A stretch of DNA of 64,000 nucleotides, from positions 3,263,260-3,327,259 of the forward strand of contig CP070758.1 of NCBI GenBank assembly GCA_020348925.1, in the 5' to 3' direction. Shown here piece after piece: positions 50,317 to 64,000 of this stretch. Source of the stretch: Gemmatimonadota bacterium. GTDB lineage: Bacteria; JBHIER01; G020348925. The number at the start of each line of letters is the position of its first letter. The first letter of the stretch is position 1. The position numbers and the translations under genes were made by a program. The notes beneath the pieces are model-generated. The model was not told the DNA's origin and made no database searches. It saw nothing but the letters and a program-made list of their open reading frames with translations.

Positions 50317-51239
50317 ATACCTGTGGCCCGCTGGCATTCATTGAAAAAAAGTGTCAAGGGCGTGTGCTTCACAACGAACCGCTTTCGTCTCACACCTCCT
50401 TCGGGATAGGCGGTCCGGCGGATGCCTTTGTGTGGGCCGACGGCGTGGAGGATGTGGAAATTGTACAGGACGCTGTTTTATCGAACGAGATCCCCTTTCT
50501 TGTGATAGGGAACGGAACAAATCTCCTGTTCCATGATGAGGGATTTCGAGGCGTCGTTCTGCGCCTCGGTCGGCACTTTAAAGGGATCGTAAGTGAAGGG
50601 ACACGCGTCACAGCAGGAGCTGGGGCAAATCTCTCGAAAACGTTGAGCTTTTGTGCCGAACATGATTTGGGAGGTTTCGAATTCGCAGTCGGCATTCCGG
50701 GTACTGTGGGTGGTGCGGTGTCGTCCGCAGCGTGGACGCGATCCGGGGGGATTCGGGATCGACTCTCGCGCGTCACCGCCATGGGGCCCAAGGGAGATGT
50801 CGTGACAAAAGATGCACCATCCCTGGGAAACGAGCATGGAGACCTCGTTCCGGATGGCTGTATTATTACTGAAGTCTCGTTTCAACTTGAGCCTGCGCCT
50901 GAAAATGCTATTCGTCTGGAAATGGAACGTCTTATGGCCCGTCGCAAACAAACGCAACCGTTGAACAAACGGAGTGCCGGCTGCGTCTTCAGAAATCCGG
51001 AACATCAATCTGCCGGTCGGATCATCGATGAATGCGGATGTAAGGGGATGAGGGTGGGTGGGGCGGTCGTTTCCGAGAAGCACGCCAATTTCATCATCAA
51101 CAGCGGTGGGGCGCGATCGGAGGATGTGCTCGAGTTGATCGAGCGCGTCCGGGAGCGGGTCCACAGCGCGACCGGTGTTCTCCTCGGATTGGAAATCGAT
51201 GTCGTCGATCCTTGGGGCGGTATGAGGAGAGATGCGTAG
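50313..51239 (+). CDS. murB: UDP-N-acetylenolpyruvoylglucosamine reductase
   Basis: 308 residues, FAD enzyme reducing UDP-GlcNAc-enolpyruvate to UDP-MurNAc. HTSFGIGGPADAFV, VIGNGTNLLFHDEG, EFAVGIPGTVGGAV and CGCKGMRVGGAVVSEKHANFIIN mark a short type II MurB. At the proton-donor position the usual Ser is replaced by Cys (SAGCVFRNP), a substitution also found in other MurB proteins. ATG 50313 overlaps the murC stop. Confidence 0.96.
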   Translation: MNTCGPLAFIEKKCQGRVLHNEPLSSHTSFGIGGPADAFVWADGVEDVEIVQDAVLSNEIPFLVIGNGTNLLFHDEGFRGVVLRLGRHFKGIVSEGTRVTAGAGANLSKTLSFCAEHDLGGFEFAVGIPGTVGGAVSSAAWTRSGGIRDRLSRVTAMGPKGDVVTKDAPSLGNEHGDLVPDGCIITEVSFQLEPAPENAIRLEMERLMARRKQTQPLNKRSAGCVFRNPEHQSAGRIIDECGCKGMRVGGAVVSEKHANFIINSGGARSEDVLELIERVRERVHSATGVLLGLEIDVVDPWGGMRRDA

Positions 51240-52074
51240 TACGAAAAAAATGTATTTCAATGAGATTGCGGTGAGAGAACCGAGACACGTCCTGCTCGCC
51301 CTTATCAAAGCCTTCAACCGGACGACGGTCGTAGTTACCGTGTTGGGGTTCCTGGCCCTTATGGGCCATCACGTCTACACGTGGGCTCTTCAGACGCCGT
51401 TCTTTGAGATCCAAGAGATTCGTGTGCGGGGACATCATATCATTTCCGAGGAGAGGGCCTTGAGCTTGATTGGGATCGAGGAGGACTGTAATATCTTCCG
51501 GTGCGATGTCGATGCGGTGGAGCGGAGGGTTGCCCAGGATCCTTTTGTGCGAAAGGCGGACGTGAAACGTCGTTTGCCCTCAAAGCTTCTCCTTTCGATC
51601 GAGGAGAGAAAGCCCTTGGCCTTTTTGGCCGATATGATCGGTATGGTCGACGACGAGGGCGTACTGCTTCCACCCATTGCTCCGGAACAGTGGTCCGATC
51701 TCCCGCTCTTGACAGGGATTGGGGTAGAAAAGATCCGCTTTGGGGAGCCGCTTCAGTCTGAGCCGGTAGCGTGGGCCGTCTCTTTTCTCAAGGCCGCGGC
51801 CGCATTGAACTCGAACGGAGCTCTTGAAATTACCGAGATCGATCTGAGCGATATGGCACATCCGCTTTTGTACGCCGGTGACAGGAGTGTTCCCGTCAGG
51901 ATTGGGGTGACGGGCTCTCTGTCACAATTGACCAGTCTTCCTGTCGTCCTGGCGGATTTAGAGCGGAAGGGGATAGAGGCCGAATATATCGATGTGCGCT
52001 TTTCGAATCAGATTCTTGTCAGGCCGAGAAGATTTACGAACATGGGGCTGGAATCAAAGGCAGTGAAAGGTTGA
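51232..52074 (+). CDS. ftsQ: Cell division protein FtsQ
   Basis: 280 residues: a short cytoplasmic tail, one membrane helix (VVTVLGFLALMGHHVYTWAL region, about 26-46), then a POTRA domain (FFEIQEIRVRGHHIISEERAL in part) and a beta domain with KRRLPSKLLLSIEERKPLAF, which is the typical FtsQ/DivIB core. FtsQ recruits FtsL and FtsB at the septum. The start overlaps murB by eight bases. It is followed by a 391-bp gap before ftsA, unusually long within this tight cluster. Confidence 0.9.
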   Translation: MRSTKKMYFNEIAVREPRHVLLALIKAFNRTTVVVTVLGFLALMGHHVYTWALQTPFFEIQEIRVRGHHIISEERALSLIGIEEDCNIFRCDVDAVERRVAQDPFVRKADVKRRLPSKLLLSIEERKPLAFLADMIGMVDDEGVLLPPIAPEQWSDLPLLTGIGVEKIRFGEPLQSEPVAWAVSFLKAAAALNSNGALEITEIDLSDMAHPLLYAGDRSVPVRIGVTGSLSQLTSLPVVLADLERKGIEAEYIDVRFSNQILVRPRRFTNMGLESKAVKG

Positions 52075-52187
52075 CGCCCAATAATCACACTAAAACTCAA
52101 GAAAGGAGAAAATTTCTTTTGATTCCAGCCCCTGATAAAACGTCTATGGAGAACAGCGAAATGGTTTAAACGTGAACATAAAAAATC

Positions 52188-52301
52188 TGAGCAGGTGACT
52201 GGCCAGGGTTCATTGACAAAACGATAAGCAAGCCTACCATTCCTGTCACATCACATTCTCTCTCCGTATTTTGTCCCTCTCAAATGGCCATAGCCTGCTC
52301 A
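52188..52301 (+). ncRNA. Hairpin-bounded element 1 of a tandem pair upstream of ftsA
   Basis: TGAGCAGG (52188-52195) and CCTGCTCA (52294-52301) are perfect inverted ends of a 114-base element. Near its 3' end is TTGTCCCTCTCnnnTGGCnA, repeated almost exactly in element 2. Inside, GACAAAA (near 52215) can pair with TTTTGTC (near 52268), and TGGCCA occurs on both sides next to the outer stem. It may be a cis-acting RNA or a protein-binding DNA site. The strand is assumed from the genes. No known RNA class is recognised. Confidence 0.5.
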
Positions 52302-52321
52302 GAGTCCTGACATGCCGTTGT

Positions 52322-52420
52322 TGAGCAGGTGAGTAGTCGGTGATTGTGACTATTCTACCCGTAACGCTTTGATGTTGAAACAATCGCCATTGTCCCTCTC
52401 TCGTGGCGAAAGCCTGCTCA
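52322..52420 (+). ncRNA. Hairpin-bounded element 2 of a tandem pair upstream of ftsA
   Basis: A 99-base element with the same ends, TGAGCAGG (52322-52329) and CCTGCTCA (52413-52420), a shared 5' GAGCAGGTGA and the same TTGTCCCTCTCnnnTGGC block. Internally GGTGATTG (near 52339) can pair with CAATCGCC (near 52381). The 3' arm of element 1 could also pair with the 5' arm of element 2, giving an exclusive alternative fold. It ends 45 bases before the ftsA start. Confidence 0.5.
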
Positions 52421-52465
52421 ACACCGCATGTTTTCTGCAGTACGGGAGGAGGAACGGTTTCGAGC

Positions 52466-53707
52466 ATGGGGAATGAAAACTCGGTCATTGTGGGTCTCGA
52501 TATAGGCACGACGAAGATCGGCGTCATTGTGGCTGAGATCGGTGCCGATGGTGAGGTGCGCATTGTGGGTGTCGGCACGAGCCCTTCGGAAGGGCTCAGG
52601 CGCGGTGTCGTGGTCAATGTGGAGAAAACGGTCCAGTCGATAAAGACTGCCGTGGCCAGGGCTGAGCGCAGTTCCGGGAAAAAGATTTCGTCCGTCTACG
52701 CCGGGATTGCCGGGGACCACATTCGGTCCATTAACAGCCGGGGTGTTATTGCGGTCTCCAGGGGTGATCATGAGATCACCCCCGGTGATGTGAGACGGGT
52801 CATCGACGCTGCCAAGGCCGTGGCCATTCCCATGGACCGAGAGATTATTCATGTTCTTCCGCAGGGTTACGTCGTGGACGACCAATCCGGTATCAAAGAT
52901 CCCGTTGGCATGGCCGGAGTGCGATTGGAAGCGGAGGTCCATATCGTGACAGGGGCGGTCACTTCGGCTCAGAACATATACAACAGTATTAGGAAGGCGG
53001 GATTGGAAGTGAAGGATCTCGTGCTCCAACCCCTGGCTTCGAGTTACGCTGTCCTGTCTCAAGATGAAATGGAGCTTGGTGTCGGACTGCTGGATATCGG
53101 GGGCGGGACGACGGATATCGCTCTCTTCTTTGAGGGAAGTATCCGACACACGGCCGTCATCGGCTTCGGAGGAAGAAATGTCACCAACGATATTGCCATC
53201 GGACTCAGAACGCCGGTGGACAAGGCCGAGGAGATCAAGATCGAAAAGGGATGCGCCTTACAGACCATGATGGACAAGGATGAGGTCATGGAGGTGGAAA
53301 GCACCGGCGGTCGGCCGTCCCGGCAGATATCGCGCAGCGTCCTGTGCAGCGTCATCGAGCCAAGAGTGGAGGAGATCTTCAGTCTGGCGCGCCGAGAGAT
53401 CAAAAAGTCCGACTACGCGGGCCTTCTGACGACCGGTATCGTCATCACCGGAGGATCCTCGTTGATCGAAGGTTCGGTAGAACTGGCCGAGCAGGTCTTC
53501 GACCTCCCGGTCAAGCTCGGAGTACCGCAGGAGATCGGCGAGACAATGGATGAAGTGAAAAGTCCGGTCTTTTCGACGGGAATCGGGCTCATCCATTATG
53601 CTCAAAAGCATCGGACGGGCGATAACGGATTTTGGGACATCAGTGAGTCGAACCCTTTTGAAAAAATTTTGGAACGTATGAAAGGCTGGTTTCGAGATTT
53701 CTTTTAA
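52466..53707 (+). CDS. ftsA: Cell division protein FtsA
   Basis: 413 residues of the actin fold; tethers FtsZ to the membrane. [17 protein letters not shown] is the first phosphate loop, [18 protein letters not shown] the second, and [13 protein letters not shown] the adenosine motif. The C-terminal amphipathic helix [18 protein letters not shown] is the membrane-targeting sequence. ATG 52466 matches the family N-terminus; GGAGGAGG is about 14 bases upstream, a little far. Start sites further upstream would lie in the tandem hairpin element. ftsZ follows 40 bases later. Confidence 0.96.
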
Positions 53708-55536: not shown

Positions 55537-58500
55537 CTATTTCATGAGCACCATTCGCTTCGTCGCCGTGAATTGTCCTGCTTCCAGCCGGTAAAAGTAA
55601 ACCCCACTGGGCAAACCCGCCGCATCCCAGATAACGCTATAATACCCACTATCCAACTCCTCGTCAACCAGCACCTTCACGACCTCCCCAAGTGTATTGT
55701 ACACAACCACACTCACGTGGTGCCGTTCAGGAAGAGCAAGGTCAATTGTGGTCTCAGGATTGAAGGGATTGGGGTAGTTCTCCAACAACACAAACTCCTC
55801 GGGAACAACTCCCTCCTTTGTCGCCAATGGCCCACGAAAACGCGGCGGTCGCCTCACCTCCATGATCACGTCCACACTGTGTATCACATTCCCGTCATCG
55901 CCGGTGATGGTCAAGCCATAGTCATCGAGTAGAACCACTCGCGTTACTTCGACCGACAACCTCAAGGTCGCATAGCCACTCGACGTGGGCTCTACCACAG
56001 GATTTTCGGTATTCGGATAAAAAAAGTATCTCCGTGCTCCGGGCGGTAACCCCGATACACTCAATCTCACCGGACGACTGAAACAGCCAAACCACTTGAC
56101 CGTCACATCGTACGTGGCCGAACCAAGCAGCCCCATAAGCCACTCCACCCTGTCCACACCCGGAACAGCCACAAGGCAGTCGTCACATGGATCCCCAATC
56201 CCATCATTGTCCTCATCGGCCTGATCCTCGTTTTCATACAGCGGACAGTTGTCGCAGGCATCGCCATGGGTATCGGCGTCCGAATTGGCCTGATCGGCGT
56301 TGACATCGTTGGGACAGTTATCCACATCGCCGCAAACCCCATCCCCGTCAACGTCGTTGTCCGGATCGTTGGGACAGGCGTCGCAGACATCACCGATACC
56401 GTCATTGTCAGCATCATCCTGACCGGGGTTGGCATCATCGGGGCAGTTGTCCTCCGGGCAGGTATTGGCCACGTAGCCTTGATTGCCGTAGCCATCGCCG
56501 TCAGTATCGGTACAGGTGTCGCAGACATCCCCGGTGCCGTCGCCATCGGCATCCTCTTGGCCGGTGTTAGCATTATTAGGGCAGTTGTCCACATCGCCAC
56601 ACACGCCGTCGCCATCGGCATCGTTGTCCGGATCGTTGGGGCAAGCGTCGCAGACGTCGCCCACCCCATCCCAGTCGTTATCAAGCTGTTCGGGATTGGC
56701 AACGTCGGGGCAGTTGTCGCACTGGGCGCCCCAGCCGTCGAGATCGTCGTCGTGTCCGTATCCTTCGTCCTTGAGGCCGTCGCAGTTGTTGTCTATGCCA
56801 TCACACACCTCAAGGAATCCCGGTGGGTTCTCTATCTTGACCGAGCTTATTCTATCATTGAAATTAAAGTCCCCACTTAGGTCGCTGATATACTTCACTG
56901 AACCGCTTCCCTCTTGCGCTGTTTCAAACCTCTCAAACTCGCCACTCGGGTAGTACACGTCCACCCGAGACAAATTGGTGAGCTTGAGGCAGTAGCCTTC
57001 ATAATCTTCATGTTCACACAGCCAGGCCACTTGCCCCTCCGCCAAGTTCCATCTGACCGAGCTGGTCCAATCACCAAATCCATCGTCGTAATCGTCCAGC
57101 AAACGCCAGTCGTCCTTGTCCCGATCAACGAAGTCAAAAATTAAGCTGCGCTTCGTGGTCCACCAGCCCTCGGCTTCGGCGTACAGCTCCACCCAGCCAC
57201 CGCACCGCGCATTGGGCAGTGAGCCGTCCTGGCGGACGTCGATGTTCCTGAATTCGCCCATTTCCAGGACCGGGTAGCCGTCCCACCCTGGTGGCCCTTC
57301 ATTGTCGTGGTCCGCGGTGTACAACATCAACTGTCCCGACGGACTCACGTAAACGCCAGCCGCCGCGTCAAGATCACCCATCTCTGGGGCACTCAGCCTC
57401 AGTTCTTTCTCAGCAATGTACTCAAGGCTGAACTCATCACCGCTGCGAGTCACCCTGAACAGCCGCGCCAAGTCCTTCCCATCCCCATCAACCACCGGCC
57501 AGTCAAAAGTTGCGGGCGTATTGTTGTCCGTGCCGATGAGATACAGGTCTCCATTGCTGTCGCGCACGAAATTCAGCATCTGCCATTCCAACCTGCACGG
57601 GAGCCACGGGAGGTGTGGCTTTCCACACGTTGTCCCACAGTTGCCACACCAATCGGACTCATCCGGGAGCTCGTCGCTTGTCCATTCGTCAATGAACTGG
57701 AGCTTTGTGTACATATCCAGCCAATCTGTGGTCGATTCAAGGAACCACACGGTTCTGCTCTTGTTGAAACTGCCGCCGGTGATGGCAAAGAGATACTTGC
57801 CGCTCACTGGATCCTTCGTAACAGCGACAACGGCAATCTGGAGGTCGTGGTGAGGGGAGGGGGGGTTGAGAACATCAGTGATATAGATCGGTTTGATCAG
57901 TCTGGGCGCTTCTGGCTCGCTAACGTCTATAAGCATAATGGCGCCATAGTCCATTTTGTCTATGCAACTGGAACTGCCGTCCACCACTTCGAAACCGCCC
58001 GTGCATGGCTGCTCCATGGCGACAAATAGGACGTTGCCAACGAGTTGCATACCGCCCGGATGCATCCATGCGGGCCAATCGCCCCCGTCGAAGTGGATGT
58101 GGGCAGCTCCATAATCCACCACTGGCGGCGTGGTATCCTTCATGTGTACTCCGGTCTCCAGGCGATTCGACCGGAGTCGTTCACCATCCTTATCCCTCGA
58201 TCCCATCTTCACGATCAGTAGTTCGCCAGGGTCGTCATCCTCGGAAGGACACGCGTCGGCGTGGTTCCCGCATCTTGTCAGGAAGAAGTACGGCGTGCCG
58301 TCGGGGCCCTCACCCCGCACGATGCCCTGGTAATGCTTGCATTCCCACGGATCGTCGCCGATAGCCTTACAGAAGGCCAGGGGATCACCGTGAGGCGCCA
58401 GCTTTTTGAAACTCCACTCCACATTATCAACGCGGGGGTTCTCCGGTCTGAAGGCCTGGAGTGCGGCGGCCTCCTCCCTCGCCGTAGGTGGATCTGCGGC

Positions 58501-58632
58501 GTATGCCCCTAACCACAGCGCTGAGACCAAAGGCAGCAACAAGAGGGCCAATGCCAGAACAGAGGTCAGGGGTGCCAAGTCCTTCGTGGCCTGCCACCAT
58601 CTCAACCGTCTCATAATATTCCCGATATTCAT
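55537..58632 (-). CDS. T9SS cargo with beta/gamma-crystallin motif and thrombospondin type 3 repeats
   Basis: 1031 residues with a signal peptide (VLALALLLLPLVSALWLGAYA region). Residues about 50-500 contain LVIVD-like segments (LVGNVLFVAMEQ, GAIMLIDVSEPEAPRLI) that may form a beta-propeller. At about 537-590 WLCEHEDYEGYCLKL with FNDRISSVKI resembles one beta/gamma-crystallin domain. About 600-820 is a run of calcium-binding thrombospondin type 3 repeats (DADGDGVCGDVDNCP, DNDGIGDVCDACP). An Ig-like region precedes the tail [20 protein letters not shown] and GVYFYRLEAGQ, a T9SS type A sorting domain. Likely a calcium-stabilised surface protein of unknown ligand. Confidence 0.85.
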   Translation of the reverse strand: MNIGNIMRRLRWWQATKDLAPLTSVLALALLLLPLVSALWLGAYAADPPTAREEAAALQAFRPENPRVDNVEWSFKKLAPHGDPLAFCKAIGDDPWECKHYQGIVRGEGPDGTPYFFLTRCGNHADACPSEDDDPGELLIVKMGSRDKDGERLRSNRLETGVHMKDTTPPVVDYGAAHIHFDGGDWPAWMHPGGMQLVGNVLFVAMEQPCTGGFEVVDGSSSCIDKMDYGAIMLIDVSEPEAPRLIKPIYITDVLNPPSPHHDLQIAVVAVTKDPVSGKYLFAITGGSFNKSRTVWFLESTTDWLDMYTKLQFIDEWTSDELPDESDWCGNCGTTCGKPHLPWLPCRLEWQMLNFVRDSNGDLYLIGTDNNTPATFDWPVVDGDGKDLARLFRVTRSGDEFSLEYIAEKELRLSAPEMGDLDAAAGVYVSPSGQLMLYTADHDNEGPPGWDGYPVLEMGEFRNIDVRQDGSLPNARCGGWVELYAEAEGWWTTKRSLIFDFVDRDKDDWRLLDDYDDGFGDWTSSVRWNLAEGQVAWLCEHEDYEGYCLKLTNLSRVDVYYPSGEFERFETAQEGSGSVKYISDLSGDFNFNDRISSVKIENPPGFLEVCDGIDNNCDGLKDEGYGHDDDLDGWGAQCDNCPDVANPEQLDNDWDGVGDVCDACPNDPDNDADGDGVCGDVDNCPNNANTGQEDADGDGTGDVCDTCTDTDGDGYGNQGYVANTCPEDNCPDDANPGQDDADNDGIGDVCDACPNDPDNDVDGDGVCGDVDNCPNDVNADQANSDADTHGDACDNCPLYENEDQADEDNDGIGDPCDDCLVAVPGVDRVEWLMGLLGSATYDVTVKWFGCFSRPVRLSVSGLPPGARRYFFYPNTENPVVEPTSSGYATLRLSVEVTRVVLLDDYGLTITGDDGNVIHSVDVIMEVRRPPRFRGPLATKEGVVPEEFVLLENYPNPFNPETTIDLALPERHHVSVVVYNTLGEVVKVLVDEELDSGYYSVIWDAAGLPSGVYFYRLEAGQFTATKRMVLMK

Positions 58633-59626: not shown

Positions 59627-59731
59627 CTATTTCATCAGCACCATCCGTCTCGTTGCCTTGAAGTCGTTCGCCCTGATCCGATAGAAGTAGATGCCACTGG
59701 CCATGTCGGACGCATCCCACATCACCTTGTG
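59627..59731 (-). pseudogene. Frameshifted remainder of the T9SS sorting domain
   Basis: Beyond the early stop of the large cargo gene (59722-59724) another frame reads [20 protein letters not shown] and then NDFKATRRMVLMK to a TAG at 59629-59627. This is exactly the missing end of a type A sorting domain, matching VIWDAAGLPSGVYFYRLEAG and TKRMVLMK of the neighbouring cargo. One missing C in GGCTACACAAGG (expected TACCAC) explains the shift. Either a real mutation or an assembly error. Confidence 0.8.
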
Positions 59732-62700
59732 TAGCCGGGCCCCTGATCGCCGTCCACTAGGACATCAACCGCCTGACCCAAGAGGTTAAAGATCTCCACC
59801 TTCACGTTCGCCGCCTCAGGCAGCGCATACTCGATCTTCGTGATTGGATTGAAGGGATTGGGGTAGTTCTGGGCCAGGCTGTACTCGGTGGGCATGGGAA
59901 CGACCTTGACCGTCGAGCTCATGAGCGTGCTCTCATCGATCCGGGCGGTTACATCGAGCTTGCCCGGCACCAATCTCTCGAAGGTGATGGTGATGACACC
60001 CAGCTCGCTTTCACTGGCAGCCGCCAGGCGCACACCCTTCTCATCCCCGGCCCACTCCGCCAGACCGTCAACCGTCACATCCGTGACCTTCATATCTGCA
60101 CCGGAGATGACCAGGTCCACGGCACTGGCCGACCCCAGATCCACAGTCAGCGTGTTACCGGCGATCTCTGCCTCGAGCTCGCCCGACACCACCTTGGCCG
60201 GCGGACCGGGCCAGTTCTGGCTGACATCACCGATAATGACGCCCTCCCAATTCTCATTGAGATAATCCTGATAGAAATTCCTGTAGCAGACCCACGGCCA
60301 GTACCGATACGCCGGTATCGCTCCGTCGTATTCGAAGACCCAGTCACCGATGTGATGCGACGGAATCAGGTCATTGCCCACGTAGCCGGTCACCACCCAC
60401 TTGAGAATGACCGAGGCATCGAAGGCGGTGATGTCGTAACTGAAAGGCCCGCTGCCGCTGCCCGTCACATCGGCGGCGATGGAATCGTTGTGGCTCAGCG
60501 TCACGGCTCCACATATGGACCGCAGAATGAACGTCGCATCGTAGGAGGTGACGATCTGATCCTGGACTGTCAGTGTGTTCTCCCTGTAAGGTGCAATGCA
60601 AAAGCTGTCGCATCCACTCGGCGGTGGCCAGTGACCCCAAGCAGCAAGAAGACCCTGAGTGGTATCAGAAGCCTCCCCGTCCTCGTTGCTGCAATTTACG
60701 AACGTCTCGTATGGACACCAATATATGATCACATCCGGCACCGGTACGCCTGTATCGCTGTACCGCACTTCGCCCCCTACCACGAAATCCCGGACATGCA
60801 GCCACTGCCGCGGTACCCAGCAGGTCGTAGGAGAGCCCTCGTTTACTTTCAGATGGTCGACACTCAGCCCGTAGTAGGTGCAGCCCACAGCGTCATCCGG
60901 CACCTCGAAGCCGACGTAGAACATCTGGTACCAGTAGTTCCCGACGTTGGTCGGATGACCGACACCGTAGAAATTCGCGATGGCCGCCACGAGATCATCG
61001 TTTAAGGCCAGGGTGACATGAATCTTCCCGTTCTCCTCATCGAGATTGTAGGTCATCGTCCCCAGATCCTCAGTCACAAGCCCCTCGTTGCCCACCTCGA
61101 AGACGGTCAGGGTCGGATCGTAGTCCACCTCAAAGGTGAGGGACCAGATGGGAACGGCGTACGACTCAGGATAGTCGAAGTGGATGTCCACCGGGATCTC
61201 GAACCGGCCGCAGGCCCACACGTCCTGTCCCGCCACGTTGTCCGTGCTGTCGTAAGGCACCAGCAGGGTTCCAGGAAGGAGACCGGGATAGGGGATGGTG
61301 CCGACATCAGGAACATTGGCCGGCTGAGGCGGCCAGTTGCCCCAAGCCGCGGCAATGCCGCAGTCCTGGACGATGAAATCGACCCGCAGGGTATCGTACA
61401 AGGGCTGCCCTGTCTCAAAGGTGGACATGACGACGAAGTCCACGGTCACCGAGTCGCAGTCGTCCCCTTTGGTGGGATGCCACTGGAAATCCCATTCGCC
61501 GTCACTTAAGACAGCGTCGCTCCAGGCCACCGGGCTCAGCCAGGCGGGTGGTTCCTGACAACCTCCAGGCACATAGACTTCCTCGACCCAGACGTGCATC
61601 GAATCGCCGTCCGGATCGTGAGCGTCCAGAGTGAAACTGTACGTGTGACTCTCACTCAGTTGCACCTTGATGGAATCGAAGGGCACGGCCACCGGTGCAC
61701 CGTTCCAGGTGAGGTACGGCTGACGGTTGACACGAAAGAACCCGTTTGTCACTTTAATACAGGGCCATCCTTCATTGAACATCGCCCCACAGAATGTAAT
61801 GGGCGAACTTTCCCCAGGAGAGGCATATCCATTCACGTGAAATTGTAACGCGACCAGGCAACTATCACACTCTACTCCACTCGAGGCTTCACCACCGCCA
61901 GTCAACCTCACGTTGATGAGACTGCGGTCTCCATCAGGATGTTTCCACTTCAAATCCCAGCCTGAAGAATCGAGACACGTATTGTCAAACGTTATCGTGG
62001 AGTCAAAGAATATGACTGTCGTATCAAACCGGAGGCAGAAATTAAAGGAATTAACGTACTCGTCAGCGAGATTGTGCGGACCTGTCCCTGTAGGACAAAT
62101 GCAGACCTGAAAGAGTGAGTCCGGCTTGGCGATGACTCTTTCAGGGCAGATGCCCATTGAAATGACGGGACAGTTCAGCACAGTACCTGTCGGATCGTTA
62201 CTTGGTATCGTGTCCGGATCATCAGTATAGACATCTGGAACTTCGTTGCTTGTCACGACCCCCTGATTCCAAATCTGCGTGACGCCTGTAGGAAATGGAT
62301 CGTTGATAGTAACCAAGAATGTGATCGTTACTGAGTTGCCGGGTAACATCGTACCGATGTTGACACCAACAGCCGTATCCCCGGGCCCGTTCCCCTGGGT
62401 GACGCTCCCCTGGGACGTCGCCACGCTGCCCACGATGAGAGGCGTATTCACATCCGGTGTATCGGCGAAGGCTATACCGGTAACCGCGTTCACTCCATTG
62501 TTCGTAATTGTCACGAGATAGAAAATATCGTCTCCCGGGCTGAACTGGCCGTCACCGTCTCTGTCAGTAAAGAGCAGATCGGATTTCGTAGCCGACAGCA
62601 CAACGGGAAACCCTGAAATCACAGTGGCGTCGTCCGCATCCGGCGGAACTGGATCACCGAACTCGTCAACAGCCTGATCGACGATAGCCCTGTTCGTGGC

Positions 62701-64000
62701 CGAGGCGCAAGCATGATCAGCGTGGAAAGTGACGTCAACGACCACACTGTCATTCGGAGCCAACGGTCCCAGGTTGTTCCAGGTAAGCACAGAACCATCG
62801 TCCCCATTCCACGGCACTGTCGCGCTCACTGGCGATATACACATCTCAGGATAATTGTCAGTCAAAGGAAGGAGGGTGATAGTCGTTGTCCCCTCATTGC
62901 GGACAGTGATACGGAAGGTTAGATTGGTGGACACTTGTGCTATCCCACCTGGAGGATCAATGAGTACCTTTGTTACTTGAAGAAGCGTCTCCACAATGTC
63001 AACACTTGCCGTGTCGGAGTCGTCCGGTACCGGAAAGCCATATTCATCTTTGGCTCCCTCCACACCCGCCGTATCAATCGTCGCACTGCAGACGCTTGTC
63101 GCAACGAAATTGACCGTTATCTCAAAGCATGAAGTTGGACAGGGGCTCGGATCTAAGGGGCCAAGGTTGTCCCATGTGATGATTCCCGCTACGTGTGCGT
63201 CGGGAGGCGGCTCTGCAGAGATAAAAGAGAGACATCCCGGATCATATGTGTCCAGGAGAGGAAGGGTTGTAATGATCGACGTGCCTGTATTGACAACCGT
63301 AATACCGAAGCTGATTGTGTCACCGACTTGAGCAAAGCCGAGGGACGGATGAATGATATTTTTGTCAATCTGTATCTTTGTCTCCACGAGATTGACTTGG
63401 GTAATCCAGGAATCGTCAGGAACCGGTGTGCCCAACTCGGTTTCGGCTCCCTCAACAGAGACAGTATCCTCCGTGACACCGCACGCCGCAAGGGCCTGAA
63501 AGGTCACCTCCACGGTGTCGAACGCCCCCACTGCCAGGGGACCTCTATTGCTCCAGGTGATGTGACCGGGTACGGCCACATTCTCCGCCGGATCGGCTGA
63601 AACGAAACTGAGACAGGCCGGATCATAGTAATCGTGCACCGGCAGGAGCGTCACCACCGTCGCACCCGTGTTTTCAACCACGAGCCGGAAGATCACCGAA
63701 TCGCCCACCAAAGCCACTCCGCCAGCAGGTATGATCAACTCCTTCAGCACATGTATCCCTGACGAATCAATATCAACGAAGGCTGTATCCTGAATGTCCG
63801 GAACCAAAAAACCATGCTCATCAATGGTACCGCTGACTGTCGCCGTGTCAATGACCGACGGACATGCAGCAAGAGCGGTGAAATTGACCGTCACCGTCGT
63901 ACTGTCACCCGCAGCCAAGGGGCCAAGATTCGCCCAGTTTATGGTGCCGGCCACCACACCCGTCTGGACAGGACTGGCAGAAACAAACGCCAGGCAGACC
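59722..64000 (-). CDS. Giant T9SS cargo with DUF11-type repeats; 5' truncated, 3' frameshifted
   Basis: The frame continues past the window end (codons before 63957 still encode repeat sequence such as CLAFVSASP), so the N-terminus is missing. At least 1411 residues are visible. Four or more repeats of about 130 residues ([14 protein letters not shown], YDPxCLSFVSA, ITWxNxGPLA, VPDDSxTxxVDIVET) are DUF11/CARDB-like. A DUF11 domain ([20 protein letters not shown]), a cohesin-like domain, an Ig-like domain ([14 protein letters not shown]) and further beta domains follow. The end, [20 protein letters not shown], starts a type A sorting domain that stops early at PGYTR because of a one-base shift. 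Probably a fibrous surface or adhesion protein. Confidence 0.82.

Follow-up and report, generated by a model that had tools for sequence, protein, structure and literature searches.

Elements between ftsQ and ftsA of a Gemmatimonadota bacterium belong to a multicopy family with a common RNA fold, possibly one of trans-acting small RNAs

Introduction

What is the function of two similar elements that lie one behind the other between ftsQ and ftsA? The question is raised by a window of 64,000 nucleotides, the whole stretch of DNA that was analysed here, from the genome of a Gemmatimonadota bacterium. The gap between ftsQ and ftsA (52074-52466) is the sole long gap in the order murD-ftsW-murG-murC-murB-ftsQ-ftsA-ftsZ, that is the dcw cluster, as a preliminary description of the locus had noted. 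The same description suggested a tandem riboswitch-like RNA or a double protein-binding site controlling ftsA and ftsZ. The present analysis shows that element A is a member and element B a divergent member of a family spread over the genome, which changes the question from the control of ftsA to the nature of the family.

Results

The upstream gene, ftsQ (51232-52074, plus strand), codes for an FtsQ-type POTRA domain (Pfam, E 1.4e-13) and the downstream gene, ftsA (52466-53707, plus strand), for FtsA and SHS2_FTSA domains (Pfam). Both elements lie on the coding strand of these genes. Element A has perfect ends, TGAGCAGG at 52188-52195 and CCTGCTCA at 52294-52301, over a length of 114 bases; element B has the same ends at 52322-52329 and 52413-52420 over 99 bases. 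The starts are 134 bases apart, and 45 bases separate 52420 from the ATG of ftsA at 52466. The common block at the 3' side is a direct repeat of 31 bases (52271-52301 and 52390-52420) with 84% identity. The ends, lengths and spacings agree with the preliminary description. A perfect 15-base inverted repeat, GGGGCTGGAATCAAA and TTTGATTCCAGCCCC, was also seen at 52044-52058 and 52118-52132 with 59 bases between its arms; its left arm lies within the end of ftsQ, it occurs once in the genome and no T-tract follows it. Directly downstream of ftsZ the minus strand codes for two very large predicted surface proteins (55537-58632 and 59722-63957), both of which carry repeats of the calcium-binding or DUF11-like type and end, at the C terminus, in a PNPFNP tail of the sorting type.

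The full RNA copy of element A spans 52186-52303 on the plus strand and scores 107 bits against the family model. The 5' strand of its outer stem P1 (52186-52196) pairs with 52293-52303, and the 5' strand of P2 (TGGCCA, 52200-52205) with 52285-52290; both stems covary among the copies. The hairpin P3 (52207-52234) carries the conserved loop TGACAAAACGATAAGC at 52214-52229. It is followed by a G-poor, C/U-rich joining stretch (52235-52284; 3 G per 51 bases scored), in which TCCCTCT adjoins P2, and by the 3' strands of P2 and P1 (52285-52303), which are placed by the fold and by covariation among the copies. Element B (52320-52422, plus strand) retains P1, the bulged-G module described below (AGTA/GAA) and the 3' block, and most of the conserved P3 loop is absent from it. 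Its outer stem is extended by CATGC (52311-52315), which pairs with GCATG (52426-52430) just before TTTT (52431-52434), as judged from sequence and a matched-flank test. The folds of both elements are better than those of shuffled sequence (z -3.4 for A and -4.7 for B). Together with the recovery of copies by models built without them, this shows that the pair is not due to chance.

A blastn search with A in its own genome, a single contig of 5.04 Mb, gave a match of 82% identity elsewhere and several weaker places. A covariance model (R1) was built from 7 copies, with B and the copy L088 outside the training set; its genome search recovered B (E 1.5e-5) and revealed L088 as a new copy (9.6e-11). 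A second model (R2) added L141 (1.2e-8) and L142 (2.2e-4). Thus four copies were recovered by models untrained on them, with E-values that are to be read as rough. One further match in the same genome, L090 (E 0.55), was set aside as chance. Altogether, the searches gave 11 copies at 10 intergenic places, so that the several homologous intergenic copies expected of a multicopy small RNA are present. In genome coordinates they lie at 675493+, 774460-, 893379+, 915532+, 1402931-, 1798138-, 2881349-, 2973677+, 3315444+ (A), 3315578+ (B) and 3347484+. Pairwise identity ranges from 52 to 87% with a median of 63%. The nearest relative of A is L044 and not B, so the tandem arrangement of A and B is probably not the result of a recent duplication. 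Sequence likeness between the copies L048 and L049 extends beyond the core, by about 38 bases on the upstream side and 16 on the downstream side.

The copies share an outer stem P1 with a GCAGG/CCTGC core of 8-11 pairs and longer, whose arms differ by copy with compensation (TGAGCAGG/CCTGCTCA, CCGCAGG/CCTGCGG, GCGGG/CCCGC), followed by P2 with a GCC/GGC core. The P3 hairpin is of the GGTT/AACC type. Most copies strongly conserve its loop TGACAAAACGATAAGC, which is changed or absent in B, L141 and L142. The joining stretch of 44-52 bases is rich in C and U, contains CCTACC in most copies and ends in a TCCCTC-type sequence, after which the 3' strands of P2 and P1 follow; it has 4.8% G (8 copies) as against 21% in the flanks. 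In 7 of the 11 copies the internal loop between P1 and P2 is an exact bulged-G (sarcin-ricin) module, AGUA/GAA; A, L044, L045 and L141 have a different small internal loop, 3x2 in size, and a longer P2. Bulged-G modules are common in RNAs and are often tied to protein binding (PMC7247131). A candidate pseudoknot, in which the conserved loop would pair with the TTTTGTC stretch, is strong in A and L044 only, and the loop is unchanged in copies where the TTTTGTC partner differs.

Compensatory changes in the outer stem, which had been proposed as a check, are present among the copies. In a MAFFT alignment that was not fitted to structure, standard pairs make up 89% of the pair cells, and 8 pairs are changed on both sides; the score is 0.314 as against 0.162±0.021 in shuffles, and it is at most 0.10 when the partners are slid by one base. 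The alignment of all 11 copies gives 11 two-sided pairs and a score of 0.396 against 0.185±0.021, and being fitted to the model it leans to the structure. Outside the core the flanks are complementary copy by copy and not across copies, as none of 50000 permutations was as good; after an outward shift of 3 bases, 5 of 50000 were. All these comparisons are between paralogues within one genome. On the strength of these sequence comparisons, a common fold across the family is nearly certain.

The kind of variation in the helices indicates on which molecule and strand the fold exists. There are 15 G-U cells and no A-C cells, the former owed in part to common ancestry and corresponding to about 9 independent events by our count. 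In a DNA palindrome the two kinds would be equally frequent, and the bias points to an RNA with plus-strand polarity. A DNA operator or palindrome was rejected on these counts, and the double protein-binding DNA site that was suggested earlier becomes unlikely. The proposed exclusive fold, in which the 3' arm of A pairs with the 5' arm of B, has an ensemble probability of 3e-9, as compared with 0.89 and 0.996 for the elements' own stems. The suggestion of a structured RNA of no known class is upheld, since Rfam gave no match at gathering across the whole window. In a relaxed Rfam search of the element (E up to 10) the three matches all scored well below gathering; two of them were on the opposite strand, and the best on the RNA strand had E 9.9. 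Membership of a family in Rfam 15 is thus not indicated by any covariance-model score above gathering.

Outside this genome no copy of the family was found among 385 further genomes of the domain or among the 14 from the two phyla whose MurC is closest; the nearest available genomes have about 60% identity in MurC. A search with R2 of 38 other, already sampled genomes gave no convincing copy; its one match (L138 in genome G042, E 0.0086) seems by eye to be the signal-peptide start of a same-strand open reading frame and was put down to chance. An exact pattern searched over 84,980 GTDB species had 4 matches, all non-members by the model. Plasmids, phages and viral contigs held no copy. As the sample contains no relative of the same phylum, lineage-specific is used here to mean not seen outside this genome.

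At 7 of the 10 places the element is co-oriented with the next gene, and at L044, L047 and L088 it is opposed to it. The co-oriented next genes code for FtsA, CheY-like and NtrC-like proteins, two membrane or surface proteins and a cyclic-nucleotide-binding protein; at L141 the co-oriented next gene is distant. The link to ftsA that was first proposed finds no support in these neighbourhoods, in which 9 further copies adjoin unrelated genes and 3 of the 10 places are opposed to the next gene. As for the opposed copies, L044 follows an M24-peptidase-like gene, L047 lies between Fic-like and TPR-like genes, and L088 between aspartyl-protease-like and radical SAM genes. Three of the 10 places (L045, L046 and L048) adjoin genes for two-component response regulators (NarL/CheY-like, NtrC-like).

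Of the 11 copies, 6 have a tract of five T in the 20 nt that follow P1, where the background is 2.7% per 20-mer (p 1.5e-7); the other five, A and B included, have no such tract just after P1. Since several copies have runs of A in front of them, the T-tract is only weakly directional. A hairpin and T-tract that the terminator scan did not call were seen by eye after L047, and L141 sits just after the predicted terminator of its upstream gene. A common promoter was not found by consensus scans, which were uninformative. A candidate promoter in the loop of element A (52213-52240; TTGACA, a spacing of 16, TACCAT) was rejected, its second hexamer being lost in other copies. Evidence from orientation and promoters is weak. 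When copies of the family itself are set aside, sequences nearly complementary to the conserved loop occur at about the frequency of controls.

Discussion

The explanation that we tentatively regard as the best, at a little less than an even chance, is that A and B are two members of a lineage-specific, previously undescribed family of at least 11 structured small RNAs that act in trans and measure about 100-150 nt. The T-tracts after 6 of the 11 copies, the hairpin beside L047 and the terminator before L141 favour independent transcripts that act in trans. Most copies would be transcribed on their own and would end at the closing stem and T-tract. The bulged-G module is a candidate protein-binding site, and the exposed C/U-rich strand (TCCCTCT by P2, and CCTACC) together with the conserved loop could pair with mRNAs, G-rich ribosome-binding sites being one possible place. 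We infer in this way that the family is transcribed, that it has targets and that it has a protein partner. Seen in this way, A and B in the dcw cluster would be one locus of the family and not a switch specific to ftsA. A bolder form of this idea, which we hold to be unlikely, is an undescribed multicopy class of ribonucleoprotein RNAs, each copy of which would offer a bulged-G protein site and a G-poor, C/U-rich arm. The diverged siblings would titrate a single protein or else the ribosome-binding sites of numerous mRNAs, and A and B, inside the cell-division operon, would couple this network to division.

The preliminary description had stated that either a lack of covariation or copies scattered over intergenic sites would speak against a regulatory RNA, the latter in favour of a mobile repeat. 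Covariation is present; the copies are indeed scattered over intergenic sites, and a structured mobile repeat therefore stays the main rival. Such a repeat, MITE-like or like BOX or SPRITE, would have spread intergenically without a dedicated host function, and its folding would serve mobility or shield host transcripts. The 10 scattered places, all intergenic and in mixed orientation, fit it, and elements in multiple copies of inconsistent orientation have been filed as mobile or repeat candidates (PMC11109978). The likeness of L048 and L049 beyond the core is also what is expected of copies of one unit. However, the arms vary with compensation and do not form one fixed terminal inverted repeat. 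No target duplication was seen, direct repeats in a copy's own flanks having a mean of 5.4 against 5.9 across copies, with outer boundaries that are uncertain, and neither blastn of A and B in their own genome nor pattern searches gave a longer or autonomous element with the same ends. Copies as old as a median identity of 63% suggests retain the stems, the internal-loop module and variation of the G-U type, which decaying inserts should lose. We consider a mobile repeat rather improbable on balance, and clearly less so than the readings that follow.

It is doubtful that each copy acts in cis on its next gene, ftsA included, as a leader or attenuator of a riboswitch-like or a protein-binding kind. 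Co-orientation at 7 of the 10 places would suit such a role, as would the position of L049 and of A-B, which end 31-45 bases before a start codon, and the possible pairing of TCCCTCT with GGAGGAGG ahead of ftsA. Against this, the three opposed copies mean that a leader role cannot cover all of the family, the next genes differ in function, from FtsA and CheY-like or NtrC-like regulators to a surface protein and a cyclic-nucleotide-binding protein, and the exclusive fold of A with B is practically never formed.

A transcription boundary, with the long outer stem as a bidirectional terminator or a protector of mRNA 3' ends, seems very improbable: several outer stems are A-rich at 5' and T-rich at 3', L044 comes after a convergent gene's stop codon and T-tracts follow 6 of the 11 copies, yet a stem closed around about 100 bases makes a poor terminator, L047 has a separate hairpin with T-tract beside it and L141 a predicted terminator before it, and the conserved loop, the bulged-G module and the G-poor strand are left unexplained. 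A retron or an integron attC site was rejected, as there is no reverse transcriptase among the neighbours read and there are no attC-type boxes.

The family is a strongly supported RNA family that is absent from Rfam and from the other genomes searched, in a lineage without relatives in the sample. That 11 paralogues of 52-87% identity have kept one fold means that covariation within one genome can suffice to support an RNA structure. The family also bears on whether such multicopy RNAs are regulators or selfish repeats.

Among known systems, Y RNAs, the partners of Ro60, are about 100 nt long and have a closing stem with a conserved internal interruption, a pyrimidine-rich loop and a 3' U-tract. 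The family resembles them in size, in the interrupted closing stem, in the pyrimidine-rich part and in the U-tract, but it has no Rfam match to Y RNAs. BOX, RUP and SPRITE of Streptococcus pneumoniae have been described as probable MITEs, a class marked by terminal repeats and target duplications (PMC3049150). Like the family they are short structured intergenic repeats, and some of them are transcribed; in the family, by contrast, the arms vary, target duplications were not observed and the variation obeys RNA pairing. MRSC-65-2 resembles the family in its covarying structure, multiple copies and mixed orientation; it is one long stem, often in dozens of copies per genome and in diverse phyla (PMC11109978), whereas the core of the family is elaborate and its 11 copies come from one genome. 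LhrC of Listeria occurs in several copies per genome, of 111-114 nt, with C/U-rich single-stranded sites and a terminator stem (PMC4132741). Copy number, length and the C/U-rich single strand are thus common to both, but LhrC1-5 are nearly identical, whereas the copies described here are 52-87% identical and highly structured. To our knowledge LhrC1-5 lack a long closing stem that contains a bulged-G module. By analogy LhrC is a functional counterpart of the family and not a relative, the sequence relation being gauged by the Rfam scan alone.
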